Assembly: GCF_004117075.1 (NCBI RefSeq)
Contig: NZ_CP026721.1
Span: forward strand, 930,001 to 994,000
Source: Fervidobacterium changbaicum
GTDB taxonomy: Bacteria > Thermotogota > Thermotogae > Thermotogales > Fervidobacteriaceae
Direction: 5' to 3'
Length of the DNA stretch: 64,000 bases
The notes under the pieces are model-generated. The model made no database searches. It had not been told where the DNA came from and worked only from the letters and a program-made list of their open reading frames with translations. Shown piece after piece: positions 1 through 61,158 of the stretch (within the stretch, counting starts at the first letter, position 1; the number at the start of each line of letters is the position of its first letter). The position numbers were made by a program, and so were the translations under genes.

Positions 1-112
1 AAAAGAGCGTCTCTCCCATTAGAAACGTATCCGCAATGAGAATTATAGCAACTAGTAACAAGAAGATACTCCTTACAATTGGAGCTCTACGTTTCAATGT
101 GTTCAGCTCCAT
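1..112 (-). CDS. N-terminal fragment of an unrecognised membrane or secreted protein (runs off the window)
   Basis: An open frame starts at ATG 112 (or the in-frame TTG at 97, which has a GGAG sequence 9 bases ahead) and stays open to base 1. The start reads MELNTLKRRAP, followed by a hydrophobic stretch with the core IFLLLVAIILIA, so it resembles a signal anchor or first membrane helix. It lies downstream of yebC on the same strand, 52 bases past its stop, and could be the next gene of that unit. Only about 37 codons are visible and no family can be named. The call rests on frame, start and hydrophobic pattern alone. Confidence 0.4.
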   Translation of the reverse strand, partial: MELNTLKRRAPIVRSIFLLLVAIILIADTFLMGETLF

Positions 113-164
113 TCTCAATGTTTTTTACTATCGGGTCATCACAAAATATGCAATTCGAAACTGC

Positions 165-923
165 TTAGCCTTCCAACTTTGCCATTATCGCTTCAAGTTC
201 GGCATCGTCGATATCGAAGTTTCCGAAAACTTCCTGTACATCGTCGTTATCTTCAAGTGCATCGACAAGTTTTAAAACTTTCTCCGCATCTGAACCTGTT
301 ACTTTTACATAGTTCTTTGGTTTGTAAGTGATCTTTGCAGAACCTTCAAAGCCGTTCTTTGCAAGGTTTTCCTTCAGTGTTGTAAGGTTCTCAGGAGATG
401 TGTAGACAAGCACTGGATCGCCTTCCTCTATGTCTTCCGCCCCTGCGTCAATTGCCAAGAGTGTGAATTCATCCATATCGGCGATCTTTTCTGCAGGTAT
501 TTCAACGACACCCTTTCTTTCGAAAATCCAAGCGACCGAACCGCTTTCGGCAAGTGAGCCACCGTTCTTGCTGAGTATGTGCCTCAATTCTTGCGCTGTT
601 CTGTTCTTGTTATCCGTTAGTGCGAGAATGTAAAGCGCAACTCCACCAGGAGCGTATGCTTCGTAGATAACTTCTTCGTATTTTTCGCCTTCGAGTTCTC
701 CAGTACCTTTCTTAATAGATCTTTCAATTGTATCTTTTGGCATGTTCGCTTCTCTTGCTTTTTCAAGAACAGCTCTCAACCTTGGGTTCGTTTCTGGATT
801 TCCGCCACCTTCTCTTGCGGCAACGATGATTTCCCTAATGAGTTTTGTGAAGATTTTCGACCTCTTTGCATCCTGGGCGGCTTTCCTGTGCTTAATATTT
901 GCCCACTTATTGTGACCCGACAT
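165..923 (-). CDS. yebC: YebC/PmpR family protein
   Basis: A 252-residue protein of the YebC/TACO1 family, cytoplasmic. Members have been described as DNA-binding regulators and, more recently, as factors that help ribosomes through difficult (proline-rich) stretches. The diagnostic N-terminus [19 protein letters not shown] is present, followed by the usual three-domain length (family about 240-250). A GGGAGGAAGAG ribosome site precedes ATG 923. It follows clpP by 46 bases in the same direction, so tig, clpP and yebC may be co-transcribed. The family call is certain; the in vivo role is not settled by the sequence. Confidence 0.95.
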
Positions 924-48752: not shown

Positions 48753-48842
48753 ATCAACAACACCCCCAAACTCCGTCCGAAATTTTATAGTCTCCAAAGA
48801 ATACTTATCAGTATTTTACCATAAGAGTCTGAAAAAACAAAC

Positions 48843-48872
48843 AAAGCCCCGGAGGTTCCAACCCGGGGCTTT
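48843..48872 (-). terminator. Terminator of the CBM48-barrel gene
   Basis: AAAGCCCCGG and CCGGGGCTTT form a ten-base-pair stem with loop AGGTTCCAAC region; on the minus strand the stem is followed by GTTTGTTT. It separates the surface glucan locus from pfp. Confidence 0.85.
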
Positions 48873-48906
48873 GTAATTTGTAAAACAATAATTATTGGAC
48901 AACAGA

Positions 48907-50856
48907 TTAGAAGTTCACATACCCACTAATCATTATTGTATTTGTCATTATGTCTGTAATATCTGGATTTTCTATCTTTATGTTAAGTCCTTTTTCCTTA
49001 TCGAACAGTCCGAACAAGAGGTATACCTTGGTTGGATATGTGTAACCCAAACCAACTTTGTAACCATCCGCAATGTACGTAACATTCCCACTCAAGTCCG
49101 CACTTGAAATGTCGAAAGAACCAGAAAATGCCAATTTTTCTTTACCAAGCACAACGTTTCCACTCATTCCGATTATCGAACCATCGAAATCAACAGACAA
49201 CCCCAAGAGCTCGGTATCGAAACCAAGCGCGAAGTAGTAGCTGTTGTCCAAACTGTAAAGTCCAACGAGCGAGACATTTATCGCACCTTGTAGAGAATAT
49301 TCACCAACAACTGAATAGTTATTTGTGTAATAATCCTTCGCGCCGAAAAGTCTAATACCACCGAACTCAATACCTGCTATCAAGGGCAATTTGTTACTTT
49401 CGTATCCCAAGCCAAAGACGATGCTGGTGTCTTTCGCAATTTCGTAAGAAAACACTATTCCTGTATCCTTTCCTTCAACAGGCAAAGTCCAAGGCTTTTT
49501 GTAGTGGAAACCAACAAGCAGTCCATCGTTTTTCATTCTCAGCAATGCGTTGGAAATTGCTGCACCACCGTATGTCAATGACAGGGAAAGGTCTGGATTT
49601 GGGGTGAACGTTAATGTCAACTTGCTTGTTGCCCCAGAGAAAACAAGGTAATTTGTTGCGTTCGTTTGAAGTGTGTATGTGAATTCGTATTTCCCTTTTA
49701 CTGGTAGTCCCCCACTTTGTGCTTCTACTCCCTCTATTTTTAGAAGCCCATCCTTTTGGACTAGGTTGAAAACACCGTTCTTACCACCAAAGCCATCTGG
49801 TTCATACCCAGGTGCGTGCAGGTCTTCTTCCCAAACGTCGTTTCCACCAATTACAAAAACGTATTTATATTTGTGAACCCCCGGTTGCAGAGCGAGTGAA
49901 GTCACCCAATAACCATCAACAAGTTGCATCTTCTGCGCCCTTGGATTCCAACCGTTGAAAGTTCCGGCAAGGTAAGCCTCCTGCGCGTTCTCTTTCTTAA
50001 CAACAAACACAACCTTGCCATCGACAATTGAAAGTCCCGGAGTTACCTTCACGGTTGTCACTACTGCTGGCTTTTCTTCTACTTTAACTACTTGCTCTTG
50101 CTTTCCTTCCTTGACCGCTCCGGCTGGTGCTCTCACAACGAGCTTTCCACTTTCCATAGCAACTTCAAGAACTGAGTTCAACCCGCCAAATCCGTCATCT
50201 GTGTACGCAAATGCATTCGGGTCTGGTATCCAGTTACCGTCAACAACAAACTTGTATTCGTACACCCCTGGCTTTAGTTCCAAAACCGCTTCCCACCAGC
50301 CATCTTCGATGAAATAAAGCGGTGTGTCATCAGCTTTCCAATTGTTGAATGAACCAGCGATATATGGCTGCTTTGCATCCTTGTTGTAGTAGCGGATGAT
50401 GACGTAACCATCGACATCAACGAAAATTGTGTTCTCTCTCTTTTCGTTCAACACATATTTCTTCCCAGTTGGTTGGGCTTGTGTACTTTCCGCTTGCCCT
50501 AATATTTTGCCGTCTGGTGTAAGTGTAAACATTCCATTTTTCCCGCCGAATCCGTCATCTGTGTATGCTGGAGCTTCTGGGTCTTCTTTCCAAGTCTTGC
50601 CGTCAATAACGTACTTGTATTGATAAGTACCGGGTTTCAACTCGACTTCGTACACCCAAACACCGTCAATTAATTTCATAGGCCATGCAGTTGGACTCCA
50701 ATTGTTAAACGAGCCTGCAAGATAGACAACTTGTGCTTGAGATTTGAATGTGAATACGACCTTACCATCTTTGTACTGAACAGCAGCAAACGAAAGTGTG
50801 AAAACAATCAAAAATGCAACCAATAAGAATCTCCTCATCATTCTCAAACCTTCCAT
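48907..50856 (-). CDS. Triple CBM48/AMPK-type glycogen-binding protein fused to a predicted beta-barrel
   Basis: A 649-residue exported protein. After a signal peptide (residues 1-25) come three repeats of an AMPK-beta/CBM48 fold: YLAGSFNNW (45-53), YIAGSFNNW (165-173) and YLAGTFNGW (295-303), each followed about 50 residues later by a DGFGG[KL]N motif (100-108, 220-228, 353-361 regions). A linker rich in Val, Lys and Glu (246-275) separates modules 2 and 3. Residues 390-649 are alternating beta-strands (e.g. LTLTFTPNPDLSLSLTYGG) and end in ISGYVNF, with the terminal Phe common in outer-membrane barrels. It probably holds alpha-glucan at the cell surface. GGGAGGTG precedes ATG 50856. Confidence 0.85.
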   Translation of the reverse strand: MEGLRMMRRFLLVAFLIVFTLSFAAVQYKDGKVVFTFKSQAQVVYLAGSFNNWSPTAWPMKLIDGVWVYEVELKPGTYQYKYVIDGKTWKEDPEAPAYTDDGFGGKNGMFTLTPDGKILGQAESTQAQPTGKKYVLNEKRENTIFVDVDGYVIIRYYNKDAKQPYIAGSFNNWKADDTPLYFIEDGWWEAVLELKPGVYEYKFVVDGNWIPDPNAFAYTDDGFGGLNSVLEVAMESGKLVVRAPAGAVKEGKQEQVVKVEEKPAVVTTVKVTPGLSIVDGKVVFVVKKENAQEAYLAGTFNGWNPRAQKMQLVDGYWVTSLALQPGVHKYKYVFVIGGNDVWEEDLHAPGYEPDGFGGKNGVFNLVQKDGLLKIEGVEAQSGGLPVKGKYEFTYTLQTNATNYLVFSGATSKLTLTFTPNPDLSLSLTYGGAAISNALLRMKNDGLLVGFHYKKPWTLPVEGKDTGIVFSYEIAKDTSIVFGLGYESNKLPLIAGIEFGGIRLFGAKDYYTNNYSVVGEYSLQGAINVSLVGLYSLDNSYYFALGFDTELLGLSVDFDGSIIGMSGNVVLGKEKLAFSGSFDISSADLSGNVTYIADGYKVGLGYTYPTKVYLLFGLFDKEKGLNIKIENPDITDIMTNTIMISGYVNF

Positions 50857-50917: not shown

Positions 50918-52132
50918 TTACCACCAGGTGTTTATAATAACATTAACAACTGGCCTGAATGGATTATCACCTGCAAAATCACCATTCCCGAGCTGCATAG
51001 AGATTTGAGCATTCTGAAATCCTGTCAATTTCAGTTCACCGAAGAAGAAGTCCTTTTCTTCGTAATAACCTATAATTTTCTGGTATTTTGCAAAGGCTGA
51101 GACGTTGCCAAACGACCTTCCCAATTCCAAGTAGTATATTTCACCTATTGTGTTAACCGAGGAGTGTATCGGTTTACCGAACGAGTAAGACGCTTTTCCT
51201 GAAAAGTCCATAAACGAGAACGTGGACCCAAAAGTTACGATGAACTTTCCCCACTCTGTTGGCATGAAACCTGTGACATCAGAAAAACCTACCTTTTTGA
51301 GATTCGCAAAGAATTGACCGAAATTAACATCTATACCAGCTTCGGAATTGTTGAGCAAGTCATCGAGAGTGTTCTCAAAATCAAAGTTTGTGTTCACATA
51401 CGTATTAAACGCCGGTGAGCTGCCAAATTTGTACCACAAGCTTACGACATTCTGATTGCTTATATTCGTCGGGCTCAACGCTAAGCGAGTATTTGTAGCA
51501 CCAGCAAGAATGTACCTAACTCCCCAGTTGTAGCTTCCTTCTGCAAGCGATAAAAAGGCGACACTGTTTTTGAGTTCAAAGTTTGTTAAATCCTGCTGGA
51601 TGAGTTCATAACTTAGATTAAAACCTGAGACCTTTTGATAACCGGAAAGCCCTACGTCAAACCTATTCCCTCTCTTACCGAGTATGACTTTGTGGTTGGG
51701 AATCATCGGCACTGGAGCATCGAAATACATCACATCCGCGCTCAGAACCAACTTACCAAAAGCGGTATTTACATCTATCCCATCCCTGCCACTGTCAACT
51801 TTGTACAACACAACTGGATCACTTGTTGAAATGAAAGATATATTTTTGTACAGGTTCAATTTCAAATCGCTGAGCTTTAAGGAAAGCTTGGCAGACTCCA
51901 AATTGCTGTCTTTCAAACTTATCGTAAGGTCAAAATCTTTGCTAAACGCCGAAGGATTCATTCTAAATTCGGTAGAAATAGACATCTTGGGCTGTTCAAA
52001 GCCGTTCGAAAAGTCAAAGCCGAGTGAAAAATTCGCCGAGTAAGTCGATTGGAATGCAAAAACATATGCGGTAAGTAGCAAAGTACAAAACAATATTGCT
52101 AACCGTTTCATTAAATTCCGAGCATTTCTCAC
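50918..52132 (-). CDS. Predicted outer-membrane/toga beta-barrel protein
   Basis: A 404-residue exported protein with signal peptide (MKRLAILFCTLLLTAYVFAF). The mature part is full of amphipathic strands (STYSANFSLGFDF, FDLTISLKD, WGVRYILAG) with aromatic residues at strand ends, and it ends in VNVIINTWW. Length fits a barrel of about 16-18 strands. No family was recognised. It lies between the two-module lipoprotein gene and the CBM48-barrel gene, so it is a candidate glucan or maltodextrin channel; this is inferred from context only. GAGGTG is 8 bases ahead of GTG 52132; ATG 52111 is the alternative. Confidence 0.65.
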   Translation of the reverse strand: MRNARNLMKRLAILFCTLLLTAYVFAFQSTYSANFSLGFDFSNGFEQPKMSISTEFRMNPSAFSKDFDLTISLKDSNLESAKLSLKLSDLKLNLYKNISFISTSDPVVLYKVDSGRDGIDVNTAFGKLVLSADVMYFDAPVPMIPNHKVILGKRGNRFDVGLSGYQKVSGFNLSYELIQQDLTNFELKNSVAFLSLAEGSYNWGVRYILAGATNTRLALSPTNISNQNVVSLWYKFGSSPAFNTYVNTNFDFENTLDDLLNNSEAGIDVNFGQFFANLKKVGFSDVTGFMPTEWGKFIVTFGSTFSFMDFSGKASYSFGKPIHSSVNTIGEIYYLELGRSFGNVSAFAKYQKIIGYYEEKDFFFGELKLTGFQNAQISMQLGNGDFAGDNPFRPVVNVIINTWW

Positions 52133-52178: not shown

Positions 52179-52934
52179 CTATTTCTTCTCGTATTTCACT
52201 TCCAGAATAGAGAATTTTGGATTATACGTGAACGTTACATCGTACGTTCCAGCCTCTGGGAGCGAGAATGATGCGTCTTGCCCCATCCCCGCATCGTATT
52301 TCTTCCCATCGTAGTTCATTTCCCACGGCTTCCAGTCGTTGTCTGTTCTTGAAAGCTTGTATTTGTACTCTTTCTTCTCACCTGTGAAGTTCGTTCTTTC
52401 GTACAAAAAGACCTTCTTTGCACTATCCCAATTCATCTGCCCTTGCGACAAATTCCAACCGTTAATTTCCCCACCAATTGACCAGTTCTTAAGTGCTGTT
52501 TTGAATTTCTCAGAATCACCCACTCCAACCGCCTGACCGTTCACCATAGCCGTTGGTGTTGCGTAGATGGTCAGTTTAGTATCAGAACCGAGGTTTTCTT
52601 TCCAAACGGGTATTGCCGAAGAGACTTTCGTAACTCCACCTTGTTTGTAGATAACCTTGTACCATCCGATCGAAAACTGAGGACCTGATCTACTCGGATT
52701 AAACGTGACAGATGCAACCGGTAGTTCAAATACATATGCATCTTCCTCGCTACTATAAGTCATTTTGTCTGCTTCTGTTGGCACCCAGCCATTCCATTCT
52801 CCGACAACGTACGCACCATCAGGTAATTGTAGGTTCAATAATTTCATACAACTTGAAACGGTTCCAAGAACAAGTAAAAAAATCGAGATGGTGTAAAGCA
52901 AAATTAACAAACTTTTTTTCTGCCCTCTTCTCAA
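52179..52934 (-). CDS. Lipoprotein with two starch-binding-like beta modules
   Basis: A 251-residue lipoprotein: hydrophobic stretch LLILLYTISIFLLVLGTVSS followed by the lipid-anchored Cys29. Two E-set-like segments follow, marked by VVGEWNGWVP (near residue 43) and IGGEINGWNLSQGQ (near 158), each continuing with a strand carrying aromatic residues, as in starch-binding modules. The layout recalls SusE/SusF proteins, but no sequence link can be claimed. The start is TTG 52934, 6 bases after AAGGGGTG; the open frame starts at GTG 52943 inside that site. It lies between the DOMON-like lipoprotein gene and the barrel gene. Confidence 0.65.
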   Translation of the reverse strand: MRRGQKKSLLILLYTISIFLLVLGTVSSCMKLLNLQLPDGAYVVGEWNGWVPTEADKMTYSSEEDAYVFELPVASVTFNPSRSGPQFSIGWYKVIYKQGGVTKVSSAIPVWKENLGSDTKLTIYATPTAMVNGQAVGVGDSEKFKTALKNWSIGGEINGWNLSQGQMNWDSAKKVFLYERTNFTGEKKEYKYKLSRTDNDWKPWEMNYDGKKYDAGMGQDASFSLPEAGTYDVTFTYNPKFSILEVKYEKK

Positions 52935-52984
52935 AAAAATCACCCCTTTTACAAGCTGCTGGGTTTCTCAGATTTTACCATTAA

Positions 52985-53006
52985 AGAAGGGGCTGACGCC
53001 CCTTCT
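52985..53006 (-). terminator. Hairpin after the DOMON-like lipoprotein gene
   Basis: AGAAGGGGC and GCCCCTTCT form a nine-base-pair stem with a four-base loop; the minus strand continues TTAATGG, so the T-run is short (CTTCTTT). It may be a partial terminator that lowers expression of the following genes. Confidence 0.6.
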
Positions 53007-53037: not shown

Positions 53038-53724
53038 TTATTTTTTTAGAGGATTAGAAATAGTCTTAGCTATGACAACCGGCACGTTATAACCACCATC
53101 TCCAGCTTCAAATCCCTGATTCGGGTAGAAGTCACCTGCGTATTGCTTGCTTCCGTCATCGCTCAACCCACCAGTTAATACGAAAACAGCCTTTACAGAA
53201 AGTTTATTGGGATCCGTGACACCAAGCTTATTAAGTGGGACGGCTATTTCGACTACTTTGTGACCATCAGATGTTTCTGTTGATGCAAGTGTAACTTGAA
53301 CACTCGTAGCTTCAGCTGATGTAAATCTCCAAGCACCGTAGCCATCGCCCCATGTTTCAAGGACAAAGTCCACATCACCTTTCTCGAATTTGTATTTTCT
53401 TCCCCAAGGATGTTTGGTTGTGTCTTGTGCACCAGTTACACCTGAAAGGTCGACGATGACCATGAAGTTGTTATATCCTTCTTTCGTGAATTCTCCAGCA
53501 ATGTAGAGGTTCGTTGCATCAAAGAGAATACCAGCTTTGTGGATTTCGTTATTTGCACCCCATCGTGAATCTGTTGCTCCGTCGGTGTAAACATAGTTTC
53601 CCCAATCTGAAAGGCTACCGTCAAGTGTCACGGTCTTAAGGAGTGGTGGAGCCTGGAAGAGTTCACAACTCGTAAGCAGCAACACAACCAAAACAGCCGC
53701 AAATACCTGCAGTACTTTCTTCAT
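53038..53724 (-). CDS. Lipoprotein with CBM9/DOMON-like domain
   Basis: A 228-residue lipoprotein: signal MKKVLQVFAAVLVVLLLTS with lipid-anchored Cys20. The mature domain begins with TLDGSLSDWGNYVYTD, the usual opening of CBM9-like/DOMON-type sugar- or haem-binding domains, and continues with LYIAGEFTKEGYNNFMVIVD and VDFVLETWGDGYGAWRF. Such domains occur next to surface amylopullulanases. It probably binds glucan ends at the surface. GGGGAGGTATGGGTT precedes ATG 53724. A promoter-like -10 box and an inverted repeat lie upstream. Confidence 0.75.
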   Translation of the reverse strand: MKKVLQVFAAVLVVLLLTSCELFQAPPLLKTVTLDGSLSDWGNYVYTDGATDSRWGANNEIHKAGILFDATNLYIAGEFTKEGYNNFMVIVDLSGVTGAQDTTKHPWGRKYKFEKGDVDFVLETWGDGYGAWRFTSAEATSVQVTLASTETSDGHKVVEIAVPLNKLGVTDPNKLSVKAVFVLTGGLSDDGSKQYAGDFYPNQGFEAGDGGYNVPVVIAKTISNPLKK

Positions 53725-53900: not shown

Positions 53901-56525
53901 TTAGTCCTTCACAAACACATACACTTGCCTTGGATTGACTGTCCAGTTGGTATCTTGGCTCAGTGGTGATTCGTTTTTATTGCCAAATTCAAACAAACTC
54001 CCATTAAAGAACGCATACCAGACCCACCTGTATCCACCTGGTAACGTGTAATTGTTCGGCCAAGTTGGGTCTAAGTTTATCAATACAAGCACTTCCTGAT
54101 TTCCGTAGACTCGTTTGATAACGTACAGGTTCTTCCAGTCGCGTTCTATCGTTATCGAACCTTTCGATAGAGCCGGATATGTCTTCCTCAGGGTTATGAA
54201 TTGTTTAAAGAAGTTATTTATCGTGTAACCATTCATCTGCTCTTCTACTGAAACCCCATCATTTGGATCATCGTACATCGCACCATCGACGTTTGCATTT
54301 CCAAATGTGATTCCTTTTTGCTGGTAGACAGGCTTTGTCCACCATGTCTGCCCAGCTCCACTTTGACTTGCGTACCACTGCATCGGCTCTCTCACCGGCA
54401 AATCCCACGGGTCTTGTCCCCATTTCCATCCTCTCAAGCCTATTTCATTCCCATAATAAATAACAGGCATACCGTTTAAGGAAAGCAAGAGCGCATTTGT
54501 TAAAATATACTGCTTCGTACCAACTTGTGTGTTTCCACTATACTTTTGGTCGATAAGTATCGATATCCATCTGTTCAAATCGTGATTGTCTATGAACGGG
54601 AAATGTTTTACGTTGAGATAATAACTCGCTCCATTAACCCATGAAATTGTTTCTCCCAGCAGGTTATCTTTCCCCTCATGGTTGCCTGTTATTCCATACA
54701 TGAATGTGAAGTTGAACGCCGGCATCGGTGCAAATTGTGAAAGAACCGATGGATTTCCATCGTACACTTCCCCGACAACTATCGCATCGTTTCCTAACTT
54801 GCTCCTGATGTAACTTTCTATTTCCCTCGCGATTGCTGCTGAACCTGAAATGCCGTCGTCCCAATCCCACCCTTTATAATGCTTTGGTGCATCAAGTCTG
54901 AATCCATCAACACCAACCGTTATCCAAAAATCGATTATCCTCTTTATCTCTTCCATTACCGCAGGGTTATCGAAATTCAAATCTGGCATCGACAAATCAA
55001 ACAACCCAAAGTAATAAACTTTTTGACCTTTAGAGTTTATCTTCCAGTGCCAGTGGTTCCATCCGTCTCTATTTTCCAATGTCATGATGTAATAATTCCA
55101 ATATTTCGAATTCGTTGTATTTTCAACCGCATCGAGGAACCACGGATGGGTATCGGAAGTGTGGTTAACGACTAAGTCCATAACCACCCTGATGCCGTTT
55201 TGGTTGAGCTCTTTTATCATATTTTCAAGGTCCAAGAAACTACCGTAATCCGGTTCCACGTCGTAATAGTCCTCGACATCGTAACCATGGTATGATTTGG
55301 CTTTGTTGAAAGGAAGGAACCAAACTGTGTCAACACCCAGGGATTTAAGATAGTTTATCTTTTGAGAAACCCCTTTAAAATCACCTATTCCATCACCATT
55401 TGAATCGTAGAATGAGCGTATGAAAAGAGTGTACATTGTTGAAGATGTCAATGGTACGTTAATTGACGTGATATTGACGTTTGATTTGTCAATGTATTCT
55501 ATCTTGCTTTCCTTTCCATTGACAACCGCACGGACACCAATTTTTTGCACATTCCAAAAATCTACCCCAAGGAGTTCTTTTGTACTTGAGTGTGAAGTTG
55601 TTATGTCCCAAAGAGAAAGGTTGTTGTTTTTATCCAAAAGATAAACGTAAAATTTCGCGTTAGCTATCGACGAAGGATAAGACCAATTTATCGTTAATTC
55701 GTTCGTATCAACATTGTAGATAGCACCATTAATTGTTGGAGCGAGTGCCCCGAATTTGTATGTAATCTGCGGATGACCTTCTGCTGGGTCAAAGAAAATC
55801 CTAAATCCATCTAAAACACTTGTAAGTCCAGGTTTTATTTCAACACTTACAGCTGTTTCGTCCAAATTGTTACTCCATTCTTCTGAAGTTGCCTTATCCT
55901 TCAGCCTTGCAGAAATACCAACAGAATACACTCTTGGATAGCAGTCAATAGAGATACTTAATCTTGTAGCTTGTGGTGTTATCTGGAAATTCTCATCTTT
56001 GATAACATTACCTGAGCTGTCTTTTAGAAGAGCTCTTAATTCCTGAACATCATACATAACCAACAATTCATCATCTAAATCTACAAAGACTGCAAGATAA
56101 CCATTTACAAATTTTGTATCTATGGAAATTGTGTAACTTTGCCCTGGTTGGAGGGTTTGTGTTTTTTCACCTGTAAAGACCAAGCTGTTGTCGTTTCGTT
56201 TTCCATTTACAACGAATTTGTAGGTACCACCTCTTGGTAATTCAAATGAAAATGATATATCTTTATTTTTGTTCACACTCTGCTTAAGAACTTCCGTGTT
56301 CGCCGAATCGTAAACAATCAACTCGACACTCGATACTTCGTCGATGTATGCATTAAGACCATGTTTTATGTCCTTCGTTTCTACCGGTTTGGGAGTATTA
56401 ACATTTATCGAAATTTGTATCTTGCCAGCCGTTTTCAAAGAAGAACATGCTGAAAGACTAAGAACAATAATTAAGACAATCAATACCACAAAAGATAATA
56501 AGCTAAGCTTGTTGATTCTGAGCAC
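53901..56525 (-). CDS. Lipoprotein alpha-amylase (GH13) with N-terminal beta domains
   Basis: An 874-residue surface lipoprotein: hydrophobic segment SFVVLIVLIIVLSLSA with anchored Cys27. Residues 35-350 are beta-rich, including an immunoglobulin-like segment LTINWSYPSSIANAKFYVYLL. The GH13 barrel begins near 363 (YTLFIRSFYDSNGDGIGDFKG); region I is DLVVNHTS (450-457), region II GFRLDAPKH with nucleophile Asp545, region III VVGEVYDG with acid Glu586, and region IV FIDNHD with Asp649. An all-beta C-domain ends the protein. It degrades starch outside the cell, like the known lipoprotein AmyA of Thermotoga. GTG 56525 follows GGGAGGTTGAG. The closest subfamily is not determined. Confidence 0.9.
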   Translation of the reverse strand: MLRINKLSLLSFVVLIVLIIVLSLSACSSLKTAGKIQISINVNTPKPVETKDIKHGLNAYIDEVSSVELIVYDSANTEVLKQSVNKNKDISFSFELPRGGTYKFVVNGKRNDNSLVFTGEKTQTLQPGQSYTISIDTKFVNGYLAVFVDLDDELLVMYDVQELRALLKDSSGNVIKDENFQITPQATRLSISIDCYPRVYSVGISARLKDKATSEEWSNNLDETAVSVEIKPGLTSVLDGFRIFFDPAEGHPQITYKFGALAPTINGAIYNVDTNELTINWSYPSSIANAKFYVYLLDKNNNLSLWDITTSHSSTKELLGVDFWNVQKIGVRAVVNGKESKIEYIDKSNVNITSINVPLTSSTMYTLFIRSFYDSNGDGIGDFKGVSQKINYLKSLGVDTVWFLPFNKAKSYHGYDVEDYYDVEPDYGSFLDLENMIKELNQNGIRVVMDLVVNHTSDTHPWFLDAVENTTNSKYWNYYIMTLENRDGWNHWHWKINSKGQKVYYFGLFDLSMPDLNFDNPAVMEEIKRIIDFWITVGVDGFRLDAPKHYKGWDWDDGISGSAAIAREIESYIRSKLGNDAIVVGEVYDGNPSVLSQFAPMPAFNFTFMYGITGNHEGKDNLLGETISWVNGASYYLNVKHFPFIDNHDLNRWISILIDQKYSGNTQVGTKQYILTNALLLSLNGMPVIYYGNEIGLRGWKWGQDPWDLPVREPMQWYASQSGAGQTWWTKPVYQQKGITFGNANVDGAMYDDPNDGVSVEEQMNGYTINNFFKQFITLRKTYPALSKGSITIERDWKNLYVIKRVYGNQEVLVLINLDPTWPNNYTLPGGYRWVWYAFFNGSLFEFGNKNESPLSQDTNWTVNPRQVYVFVKD

Positions 56526-56621: not shown

Positions 56622-56663
56622 AAAAAAGAAAAGCCCCTTGTTGCCATTTCTGACAACAAGGGG
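56622..56663 (-). terminator. Intrinsic terminator of the opp operon
   Basis: On the minus strand CCCCTTGTTG and CAACAAGGGG form a ten-base-pair stem with loop TCAGAAATGG, followed by CTTTTCTTTTTTTT. It lies 22 bases past the oppF stop. Confidence 0.92.
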
Positions 56664-58671: not shown

Positions 58672-61158
58672 TCACCTCTTTCTAAGTCTTGGGTTGACTA
58701 TTTCTTCAAGTCCCCTACCGAGGAAGTAGAAGGCAGAACAAAGAAGCGTGATAGCTCCACCGGCTGGAACCCACATCCACCAGTAAGCGCCGATGTTACC
58801 AGAGCCAAGGTAACCAGAACTCCAAACAGTATTTATCATCAATCCCCAAGACATCCTTACTTTCATTAGTCCAAAGAAGCTAAGAACCGCTTCTGAAAAG
58901 ACTGCACCTGTGACATTGAACATCATATACAGGAACGAAAGAGGCATGACATTCGGAATTATGTGGTTAAATATGATGTACCCATGGCTACCTCCCGAAA
59001 CTCTCGCTGCATCTATGTAAGGTTTGACCTTAATTGTAAGTGCTTGAGCTTTCAAAACAAGCGTAATGCCTCCAAAACCACCGAGTAAACCAAGTATGAC
59101 TGCAAGCTTAAATAGATTCATCGTCATGAAACCAGAGAGGACTATCAAGAACGCTGTTGATGGGAAGAGCATCATTAAGTCGGCTATGCGCATGAATATA
59201 ACATCAACAACTCCGCCATAGTAAGCTGCCGCAGTACCAATTATCGTACCAATTACAACCGTAATGAGTGCTGCGAGCACACCAAGAACAAATTCACTTG
59301 GAGTACTTACCATTAGTTGCACCAATATATCCCTTCCAACAGGGTCCGTTCCGAGCCAATGCCATCTGTTTGGTGGAAGCGGATGAGCAACACCAATTTT
59401 ATTGGTAATAGACAGCCTATTGAATAACTCAACAAGCTTTGTCTCAGCAAATTTCTTATCCCACTCTACTTTTTTTGGTTGCATTTTTGCAACCGTTTCA
59501 GAAGAAATCTTGTCCCAAAGAGTGGTGTCCTCAAGATGCATCTTATGTTCTTCTATCATCCTCAGGTATATTTCTTCGTTGATATCTCCTTGACCAATCA
59601 AAAAGTTCACTGCTTCAATAGGCTCTTTATTTTCGTAGTTTTTCAGTTTTTCGACTATATCTAACCGTTTGAAATCATCCAGCTGTGAATTCTCTATGTT
59701 GGAAATAACTTTTTGTAGTTTGTTCGTTCCTCCAAAGGCGTAGCCCATAAGAGATGCAACTGGGTCAGATAATACCTTTACAACCTGACTACCAAGTGTT
59801 TCGTAACTCTCAGGAACGTTAGTATCGTTCAGAAGTATTGCCATCATTGACCTTGCCATTGCTATATCTTTGAATATTTTGTTCAACTCATAGACATATG
59901 ATTTATGAGTTTCTTCGGAGTATTTTCTTATACCATTCTCAAGTTTCGCTCTTGTCTCGGGACCGATATCAACAGAAACTTTTGCTAGTTCAAAACCAGC
60001 GTATGCTTCCAAAAATTTTTCCACATCCTTGTAAGAAACTTCAACGCCAGCTTCCTTCATTTCTTCTTCGATTGTTGTAAGCGTTGCTTTAGCCTTTTTC
60101 AAAGCAGGTTCAAGTATTTCTTTTCTTGAAAGATCAGAAAGCTTACCCTTTGCAATGTCTACAAGATGCTTAAATCTGGATGCGTTTAGTTTTTCGGTTA
60201 TTTCTTTATCTTCGTATCCTACTACTAACAGTTCCTGAATCAACGGAAAAACGGCTGCGTTAACCAAATCGGAAACACCAACAATTTCGTTGTTTACTAT
60301 TTCTGAAAATTGTGAATCCGAACTTACAAAAAGCTGTTGTCCAGTGCTTTCGGATACCAAAGACCTTGCAACTTCCAGCACTTTATTTTCAGCTTCCTCA
60401 ATTTGCTCTTGTGGATACTCGGTAGATAATTTTGCATTGAAATCATCAATAACTTCGGGTCTATCTCTGTTCAAACTTCTGAACCAAAGTATTACTCTTG
60501 AGACCTCATCCGAATCTTTGTAAGGAGACAAAGCAACCGCCAAGGTTGTGTAATCAATTTTTTGGAGTAACTCTGAGAAGTTCTGGAACGAGAATTTTTC
60601 CCTGTTTCCTATGTCTTTAACACTAACTATGGCAGAGAATTTAATTATACCTTTCTCAACGAGCTCCGAAATACTATTTTGGAAATACATTCTCTCTTTA
60701 GCAGGAATGTAACTATCAGCTATCGTATCAAGTAAGTGTCTAAGAGCATCTGGAGCGTAAGTGGTCATAATTTCGTATTGTGAGTTTCTCACTAAGTTCT
60801 CCATTGATTCCTTAAAAGCTTCTCCTTTATCCATAAATGAATATACCCAAATTTGTGCTGTTGGAATTTCGATTCCCTTGACCAAGTTTTGAGTTGATAA
60901 ATAGTCCGTAATGTACTTGCTGGAAAGTATCCTTGAATCAAGACCTGTGACGGGATCATAGATGTTCGGGTCAAGTATGTTGAGGACAACAGGAGATAGC
61001 GCTCCAAATATACCAAAGGCTATGATAACCCAAAGTCCAAACATTCCCATCTTGCTTTCTCTAAAGAGCGCCCAGTTCTTTTTGAAATTTTTGATAAAAA
61101 GCTTGAATTTTATCTTCAGTATTGATTCTTTTAATTCTGTGTTTTTAGTTTGTGCCAT
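58672..61158 (-). CDS. oppC: OppC-type ABC permease with a large inserted domain
   Basis: An 828-residue membrane protein; usual OppC proteins have about 280-400 residues. The cytoplasmic N-terminus (1-38) and first helix (MGMFGLWVIIAFGIFGALSP, about 37-56) are followed by roughly 530 residues of mostly helical, charged sequence (about 65-590). The normal OppC core then starts at HWLGTDPVGRD (600-610) with five more helices and the ATPase-contact loop DAARVSGGSHGYIIFNHIIPN (117-137 of that core). The insert would lie outside the inner membrane, where the binding protein docks. Its role is unknown. The stop lies 5 bases before oppD. Confidence 0.88.
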   Translation of the reverse strand: MAQTKNTELKESILKIKFKLFIKNFKKNWALFRESKMGMFGLWVIIAFGIFGALSPVVLNILDPNIYDPVTGLDSRILSSKYITDYLSTQNLVKGIEIPTAQIWVYSFMDKGEAFKESMENLVRNSQYEIMTTYAPDALRHLLDTIADSYIPAKERMYFQNSISELVEKGIIKFSAIVSVKDIGNREKFSFQNFSELLQKIDYTTLAVALSPYKDSDEVSRVILWFRSLNRDRPEVIDDFNAKLSTEYPQEQIEEAENKVLEVARSLVSESTGQQLFVSSDSQFSEIVNNEIVGVSDLVNAAVFPLIQELLVVGYEDKEITEKLNASRFKHLVDIAKGKLSDLSRKEILEPALKKAKATLTTIEEEMKEAGVEVSYKDVEKFLEAYAGFELAKVSVDIGPETRAKLENGIRKYSEETHKSYVYELNKIFKDIAMARSMMAILLNDTNVPESYETLGSQVVKVLSDPVASLMGYAFGGTNKLQKVISNIENSQLDDFKRLDIVEKLKNYENKEPIEAVNFLIGQGDINEEIYLRMIEEHKMHLEDTTLWDKISSETVAKMQPKKVEWDKKFAETKLVELFNRLSITNKIGVAHPLPPNRWHWLGTDPVGRDILVQLMVSTPSEFVLGVLAALITVVIGTIIGTAAAYYGGVVDVIFMRIADLMMLFPSTAFLIVLSGFMTMNLFKLAVILGLLGGFGGITLVLKAQALTIKVKPYIDAARVSGGSHGYIIFNHIIPNVMPLSFLYMMFNVTGAVFSEAVLSFFGLMKVRMSWGLMINTVWSSGYLGSGNIGAYWWMWVPAGGAITLLCSAFYFLGRGLEEIVNPRLRKR

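Follow-up and report, generated by a model that had tools for sequence, protein, structure and literature searches.

The SusCDEFG systems, or 'utilisomes', of Bacteroidota bring together, in one operon, one or more outer-membrane barrels, an amylase lipoprotein at the cell surface and starch-binding proteins in tandem (PMC7618045). In the CBM48 module of the AMPK beta-subunit, mutagenesis identified W100, K126, W133 and N150 of rat beta1 as critical (PMC4032982). Type Va autotransporters combine a signal peptide, an N-terminal functional region and a C-terminal barrel that ends in Phe; the barrel has 12 strands and comes with a helical linker. For the outer envelope (toga) of Thermotoga maritima, a published study describes the alpha-amylase AmyA (TM1840) as toga-associated and gives YLYLKASVAF as the C-terminus of OmpB (TM0476) (PMC3387000).

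We analyzed 64,000 nucleotides of Fervidobacterium changbaicum DNA (the window) and found an operon with features of each of these systems. Its genes are ordered amyA-LP1-LP2-BAR1-CBM-BAR, with CBM-BAR last, and are bracketed by two strong terminator-like hairpins (Table 1). As in a SusCDEFG utilisome, an amylase lipoprotein, predicted starch-binding proteins and a predicted barrel are encoded in one operon. Sus binding proteins are lipoproteins, however, whereas CBM-BAR has a binding array fused to its putative barrel. Judged by domain content, the operon is not a SusCD system, since neither a TonB-receptor Plug domain nor a SusD_RagB domain (the SusD-like lid) was recognizable in the genome. 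LP2 is similar to SusE and SusF in kind only, through its degenerate CBM48-like regions; its match to SusF was not significant (E 1.7), and no other sequence relation to Sus was found. The operon, the second barrel-like protein BAR1 and the conservation of the cassette are additions to an earlier note on this DNA, which had drawn attention to CBM-BAR.

Table 1. Features of the CBM-BAR operon (positions are those of the window).
Feature	Position	Strand	Length or residues	Description	Basis
CBM-BAR gene	48907..50856	(-)	649 aa	Signal peptide, three CBM48/AMPK modules and C-terminal beta-barrel-like domain	
CBM-BAR signal peptide	50785..50856	(-)	Residues ~1-24	Without lipobox; predicted cleavage site	Sequence
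CBM48 module 1	50503..50775	(-)	Residues ~28-118		Pfam, PDB match, alignment
CBM48 module 2	50131..50418	(-)	Residues ~147-242		Pfam, PDB match, alignment
Linker, modules 2/3	50041..50127	(-)	Residues ~244-272	Lys/Glu/Val-rich; length varies among homologues	
CBM48 module 3	49726..50034	(-)	Residues ~275-377	NGW variant	
Barrel-like C-terminal domain	48910..49695	(-)	Residues ~388-649	About 17-20 predicted strands	
C-terminal strand	48910..48939	(-)	Last ten residues	TIMISGYVNF; beta-signal-like, terminal Phe	
BAR1	50918..52132	(-)	404 aa	Second exported beta-barrel-like protein; ends NTWW; distant kin of CBM-BAR barrel	
LP2	52179..52943	(-)		Lipoprotein; two degenerate CBM48-like regions (GEWNGW, GEINGW)	
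LP1	53038..53724	(-)		Lipoprotein with LTSC lipobox; weak Firmicu-CTERM match, under cut-off	
amyA	53901..56525	(-)		AmyA-type GH13 alpha-amylase lipoprotein; long N-terminal extension	Pfam/NCBIfam
Hairpin at operon end	48841..48874	(-)	13-bp stem	Terminator-like	
Hairpin upstream of amyA	56634..56663	(-)	13-bp stem	Terminator-like; closes preceding ABC-transporter genes	

Read by eye, CBM-BAR begins with a signal-peptidase-I-type signal (LVAFLIVFTLSFA, with the predicted cut before AV), contains neither a lipobox nor a helical membrane anchor, and ends in ISGYVNF. A Pfam search of the protein found no catalytic domain. The earlier description of an exported protein with three N-terminal CBM48 modules and no enzyme is thus borne out by the Pfam matches and the signal peptide. 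Module 3 joins the barrel-like domain through roughly 10-14 residues, and no helical linker was seen at this junction.

Three stretches of CBM-BAR matched AMPK1_CBM (Pfam PF16561, E 3.7e-37, 126.8 bits; cut-off 26.8), and the same three modules also matched CBM_48 (Pfam, E 4e-21). Searched singly against the PDB, each module retrieved AMPK-beta and a CBM of a type II pullulanase. AMPK beta2 was aligned with the 53 modules found in 21 CBM-BAR proteins, and positions were numbered by rat beta1. The equivalents of W100, K126, W133 and N150 were W, K, W and N in 53/53 modules, including all three from the window. Aromatic residues for glucan binding, which the earlier note had named as a possible point of failure, are therefore present in every module. 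CBM-BAR modules belong to the same family as the AMPK beta-subunit CBM48 and share its four contacts; they differ in being present in three copies, exported and fused to a putative barrel. They also differ in detail. In the aligned CBM-BAR family modules, Phe or Tyr invariably replaces Leu146 and Gly stands in the place of Thr148, and in module 1 the loop that follows the first Trp (the Trp100 side) exceeds that of AMPK-beta1 by about 2 residues. A similar loop insertion in plant AKINbetagamma was proposed to favour starch (PMC4032982). By these comparisons the three modules look functional and are predicted to bind alpha-glucan.

The earlier note singled out module 3 for having NGW in place of NNW and for its charged linker. 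Both are present, but neither is of consequence. Third modules of relatives have NNW, NSW or NGW with W, K, W and N intact in 16/16, so NGW was ruled out as a functional difference and is a local change. In a tree of the modules, in which many inner supports are low, grouping was by position and not by species, and the third modules formed one clade (support 0.98); the array therefore appears to be old. An additional match of CBM-BAR to a T9SS plug protein (NCBIfam NF052315, E 4.7e-12) was rejected. It scored 45.7 where the cut-off is 100, and its three matching stretches cover a short FN.W-type region, a reflection of the shared CBM48/E-set motif.

The C-terminal region of CBM-BAR carries several marks of a membrane barrel. 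Averaged over 20 homologues, its 264 residues held 17 non-overlapping amphipathic segments of 9 residues, whereas shuffled sequences gave 4.4 on average and never more than 11, so the barrel-like C-terminus of about 260 residues claimed earlier is above chance. BAR1 also had 17 such segments, in 377 residues (null 6.7, maximum 13), and controls stayed within their shuffle ranges (8 for the CBM region, null 6.2; 7 for LP2, null 3.8, maximum 9). Two-residue hydrophobic alternation in the barrel region was far above that of soluble beta controls. Phe was terminal in 21/21 CBM-BAR homologues, most of which also have hydrophobic residues third, seventh and ninth from the C-terminus. Thermotoga OmpB is similar in C-terminal strand pattern, terminal Phe and toga outer-membrane context; the CBM array distinguishes CBM-BAR from OmpB and from the other T. 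maritima porin candidates (PMC3387000). Comparison of the barrel profile with the BAR1 profile gave an hhalign probability of 93% (LP2 control, 0.2%), and a genome search with the barrel profile matched one BAR1 (E 3.4e-4). BamA/Omp85 is present in the genome.

Structural modeling was suggestive. An AlphaFold model of CBM-BAR, of low confidence and built from a 2-sequence alignment, had 18 strands (mean pLDDT 51, pTM 0.40). Foldseek with this model ranked VDAC, TOM40, porins and ushers first, with a TM-score of about 0.4 that is suggestive only. The BAR1 model (pLDDT 31) was uninformative. No Pfam family was found for the barrel region of CBM-BAR homologues or for BAR1, and a PDB profile search with the barrel alignment returned no significant relative, only FadL (E 3.4). 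A match of the barrel region to a sucrose phosphorylase C-terminal domain (E 0.0056) occurred in 1/20 members and was attributed to chance. One weak CBM-like match, considered irrelevant, was obtained when viral contigs were searched for CBM-BAR relatives. Collectively, segment statistics, the terminal Phe, loop lengths (see below) and modeling point to a probable outer-membrane beta-barrel in the last ~260 residues, its closure and strand number being putative.

Promoter scans of the operon gave nothing beyond chance. Between LP1 and LP2 (window 52979-53005, minus strand) lies a GC-rich hairpin, GAAGGGGCGTCAGCCCCTTC, followed by TTTAA; it may be a partial terminator through which the downstream genes are expressed at different levels. 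AmyA of the window has 874 aa with an N-terminal extension of ~340 residues before GH13, and the T. maritima-type protein has 556 aa. Elsewhere in the window (58672-61158, minus strand), a DppC/OppC-like permease of 828 aa, far above the usual length, appears to carry a large insertion that separates its N-terminal part from the permease core.

The order amyA-LP1-LP2-BAR1-CBM-BAR recurs in a T. maritima-type genome, between malE and pulA. By gene order, we take the cassette to correspond to TM1840-TM1845 and CBM-BAR to TM1844. The six porin candidates listed for T. maritima (PMC3387000) do not include the counterparts TM1843 and TM1844, and TM1841-TM1844 appear as entries in a gene-order table of the mal2 region only (PMC2246101). 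That table was all that we found on TM1841-TM1845, or on a fusion of CBM and outer-membrane barrel, in the open-access literature. The CBM-BAR family is real and conserved, and is undescribed in that literature.

Across 103 Thermotogota genomes, profile matches were found to the barrel in 36/103 and to BAR1 in 33/103; these counts are raw, with no correction for phylogeny. BAR1 lay directly upstream of the barrel gene, on the same strand, in 33/33 genomes, and no genome had BAR1 without the barrel. Three genomes had the barrel without BAR1: G082 and G087, where the barrel gene is at a contig end, and G080. In G080 (L075 5855-6607, minus strand) the gene is truncated to the barrel, without modules or signal peptide, and LP2 and BAR1 were not found nearby, a state consistent with shared loss of cassette parts. 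Family f10, presumably Petrotogaceae-like, has forms of 410-433 aa with one CBM and the same barrel, adjoining LP2 and BAR1 homologues. In another relative (L056 10080-11489, minus strand), a cassette lipoprotein of 469 aa in the usual place of LP1 carries a CBM48-like array with the repeat motifs YIIGNYCNW, YIIGSYCGW and YVRGSFNNW.

CBM-BAR modules have further relatives among secreted GH57 enzymes that carry a pair of CBM48 modules plus Glucodextran_C (e.g. L076 1894-5469) and in which an enzyme takes the place of the barrel. Modules 1 and 2 of such an enzyme, and of a paralogue lacking GH57, clustered with modules 1 and 2 of CBM-BAR. The paralogue is encoded in the same genome as the window (L038 5751-7748; G000:C1 ~1345750-1347750) and consists of two CBM48 modules and Glucodextran_C without a GH57 domain. 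Thermosipho-like relatives (L076) show the same layout with the GH57 enzyme intact; it seems, then, that in Fervidobacterium-type genomes the catalytic domain was lost while the binding parts were retained. A link between these two module-sharing families comes from a short contig (L059 1-3857), where CBM-BAR is followed immediately downstream by a gene for a CBM48-GH57 enzyme.

Taken together, it is very probable that CBM-BAR combines an outer-membrane barrel with a glucan-binding array and belongs to a starch system. CBM-BAR would be an integral protein of the outer membrane (toga): BamA would insert its C-terminal barrel, and three working alpha-glucan-binding modules would make up its N-terminal array. 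Made with AmyA, LP1, LP2 and BAR1, it would form the outer-membrane part of a Thermotogota starch-utilization system. In this scheme starch would be cut by AmyA and held by the lipoproteins, and BAR1 and/or CBM-BAR would provide passage for maltodextrins. Chains bound by the CBM array at the channel mouth would be kept near the pore and handed to the maltose/maltodextrin importer.

The side of the membrane on which the modules reside was approached through strand parity. To our knowledge, bacterial outer-membrane barrels have an even number of strands, with both barrel ends periplasmic; an even number would therefore place the barrel N-terminus, and hence the CBMs, in the periplasm. In an exploratory test, two terminal amphipathic segments were added by hand to the 18 strands of the low-confidence model, giving 20, and loops were counted back from the periplasmic C-terminus. 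Putative outer loops averaged 7.0 residues and were variable, and putative inner turns averaged 3.0 and were nearly constant. With strand limits taken from this weak model, the alternation had one-sided p values of 0.007 and 0.03, or 0.02 and 0.07 for internal loops only, and is in keeping with an even strand number and an N-terminus in the periplasm. We consider a periplasmic array slightly more likely than a surface array because the barrel is most likely even-stranded. The full reading, with the array periplasmic, stands a little short of an even chance; for it we infer closure, binding, a pore, sidedness and a complex. The earlier note had proposed that the outer sheath contains a starch tether. 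Glucan-binding-like modules, export, the lack of an enzyme, a probable barrel and the starch context all agree with that proposal, but its outside position was assumed, and loop parity fits the periplasm.

A point in favour of surface modules is that large starch is met first outside the cell, and an intact CBM array would be most useful where the starch is. In the manner of a type Va passenger, the modules might cross the membrane inside the barrel or alongside it and form a starch-holding array outside the toga that does the job of SusE and SusF, which would supply the earlier note's tether with a route to the surface. Such autotransporter-like export would be needed because an even barrel puts the N-terminus in the periplasm. 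In CBM-BAR a signal peptide, a passenger and a probable C-terminal barrel of ~260 residues with a final Phe follow one another as they do in type Va proteins (PMC3297439), and AmyA is itself toga-associated (PMC3387000). However, the autotransporter domain PF03797 was found neither in CBM-BAR nor in the genome, the short junction after module 3 shows no helical linker, and the 17-20 strands predicted from the low-confidence model are well above 12. We regard surface display as possible but doubtful.

The remaining readings question the barrel or the substrate. If the C-terminal region were a secreted beta-domain, aggregation-prone or sheath-associated, CBM-BAR would be a soluble or toga-adsorbed starch-binding factor. 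The weak structure prediction (pLDDT 51, pTM 0.40), the want of a Pfam family or significant PDB relative for the region, and short predicted strands of 6-10 residues all lean this way. Against it stand alternation and segment counts far above those of soluble beta controls, the universal C-terminal Phe among homologues, fold matches that are nearly all membrane barrels, distant kinship to BAR1 and alternating loop lengths. The first and third of these also speak against the soluble beta-sandwich that the earlier note had raised as an alternative, and we judge a non-barrel domain unlikely. More improbable still is a protein with no part in starch use that would bind a different alpha-glucan, perhaps glycogen made by the cell or a glycan of the envelope, and help to structure the toga. 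AMPK-type modules of other proteins do bind glycogen (PMC4032982), yet the CBM-BAR operon includes a GH13 amylase lipoprotein, the T. maritima-type locus lies between malE and a pullulanase gene, modules 1 and 2 are common to a secreted GH57 enzyme in relatives, and CBM-BAR is absent from most sampled Thermotogota, unlike a structural toga protein.

How polysaccharides pass the outer membrane is poorly known in diderms outside Proteobacteria and Bacteroidota, and few proteins have been assigned to the toga. The operon described here supplies linked, conserved outer-membrane candidates for starch handling, including the T. maritima counterparts TM1841-TM1844, without recognizable TonB-receptor or SusD parts. 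We tentatively suggest that the cassette LP1-LP2-BAR1-CBM-BAR may be a Thermotogota starch-uptake machine independent of SusCD and TonB. At the mouth of the pore, one channel protein would have a glucan-binding array of its own, which might lie in the periplasm as a trap against back-diffusion of maltodextrins. As a thermostable scaffold for starch capture, a barrel with such an array built in would be of practical use too.
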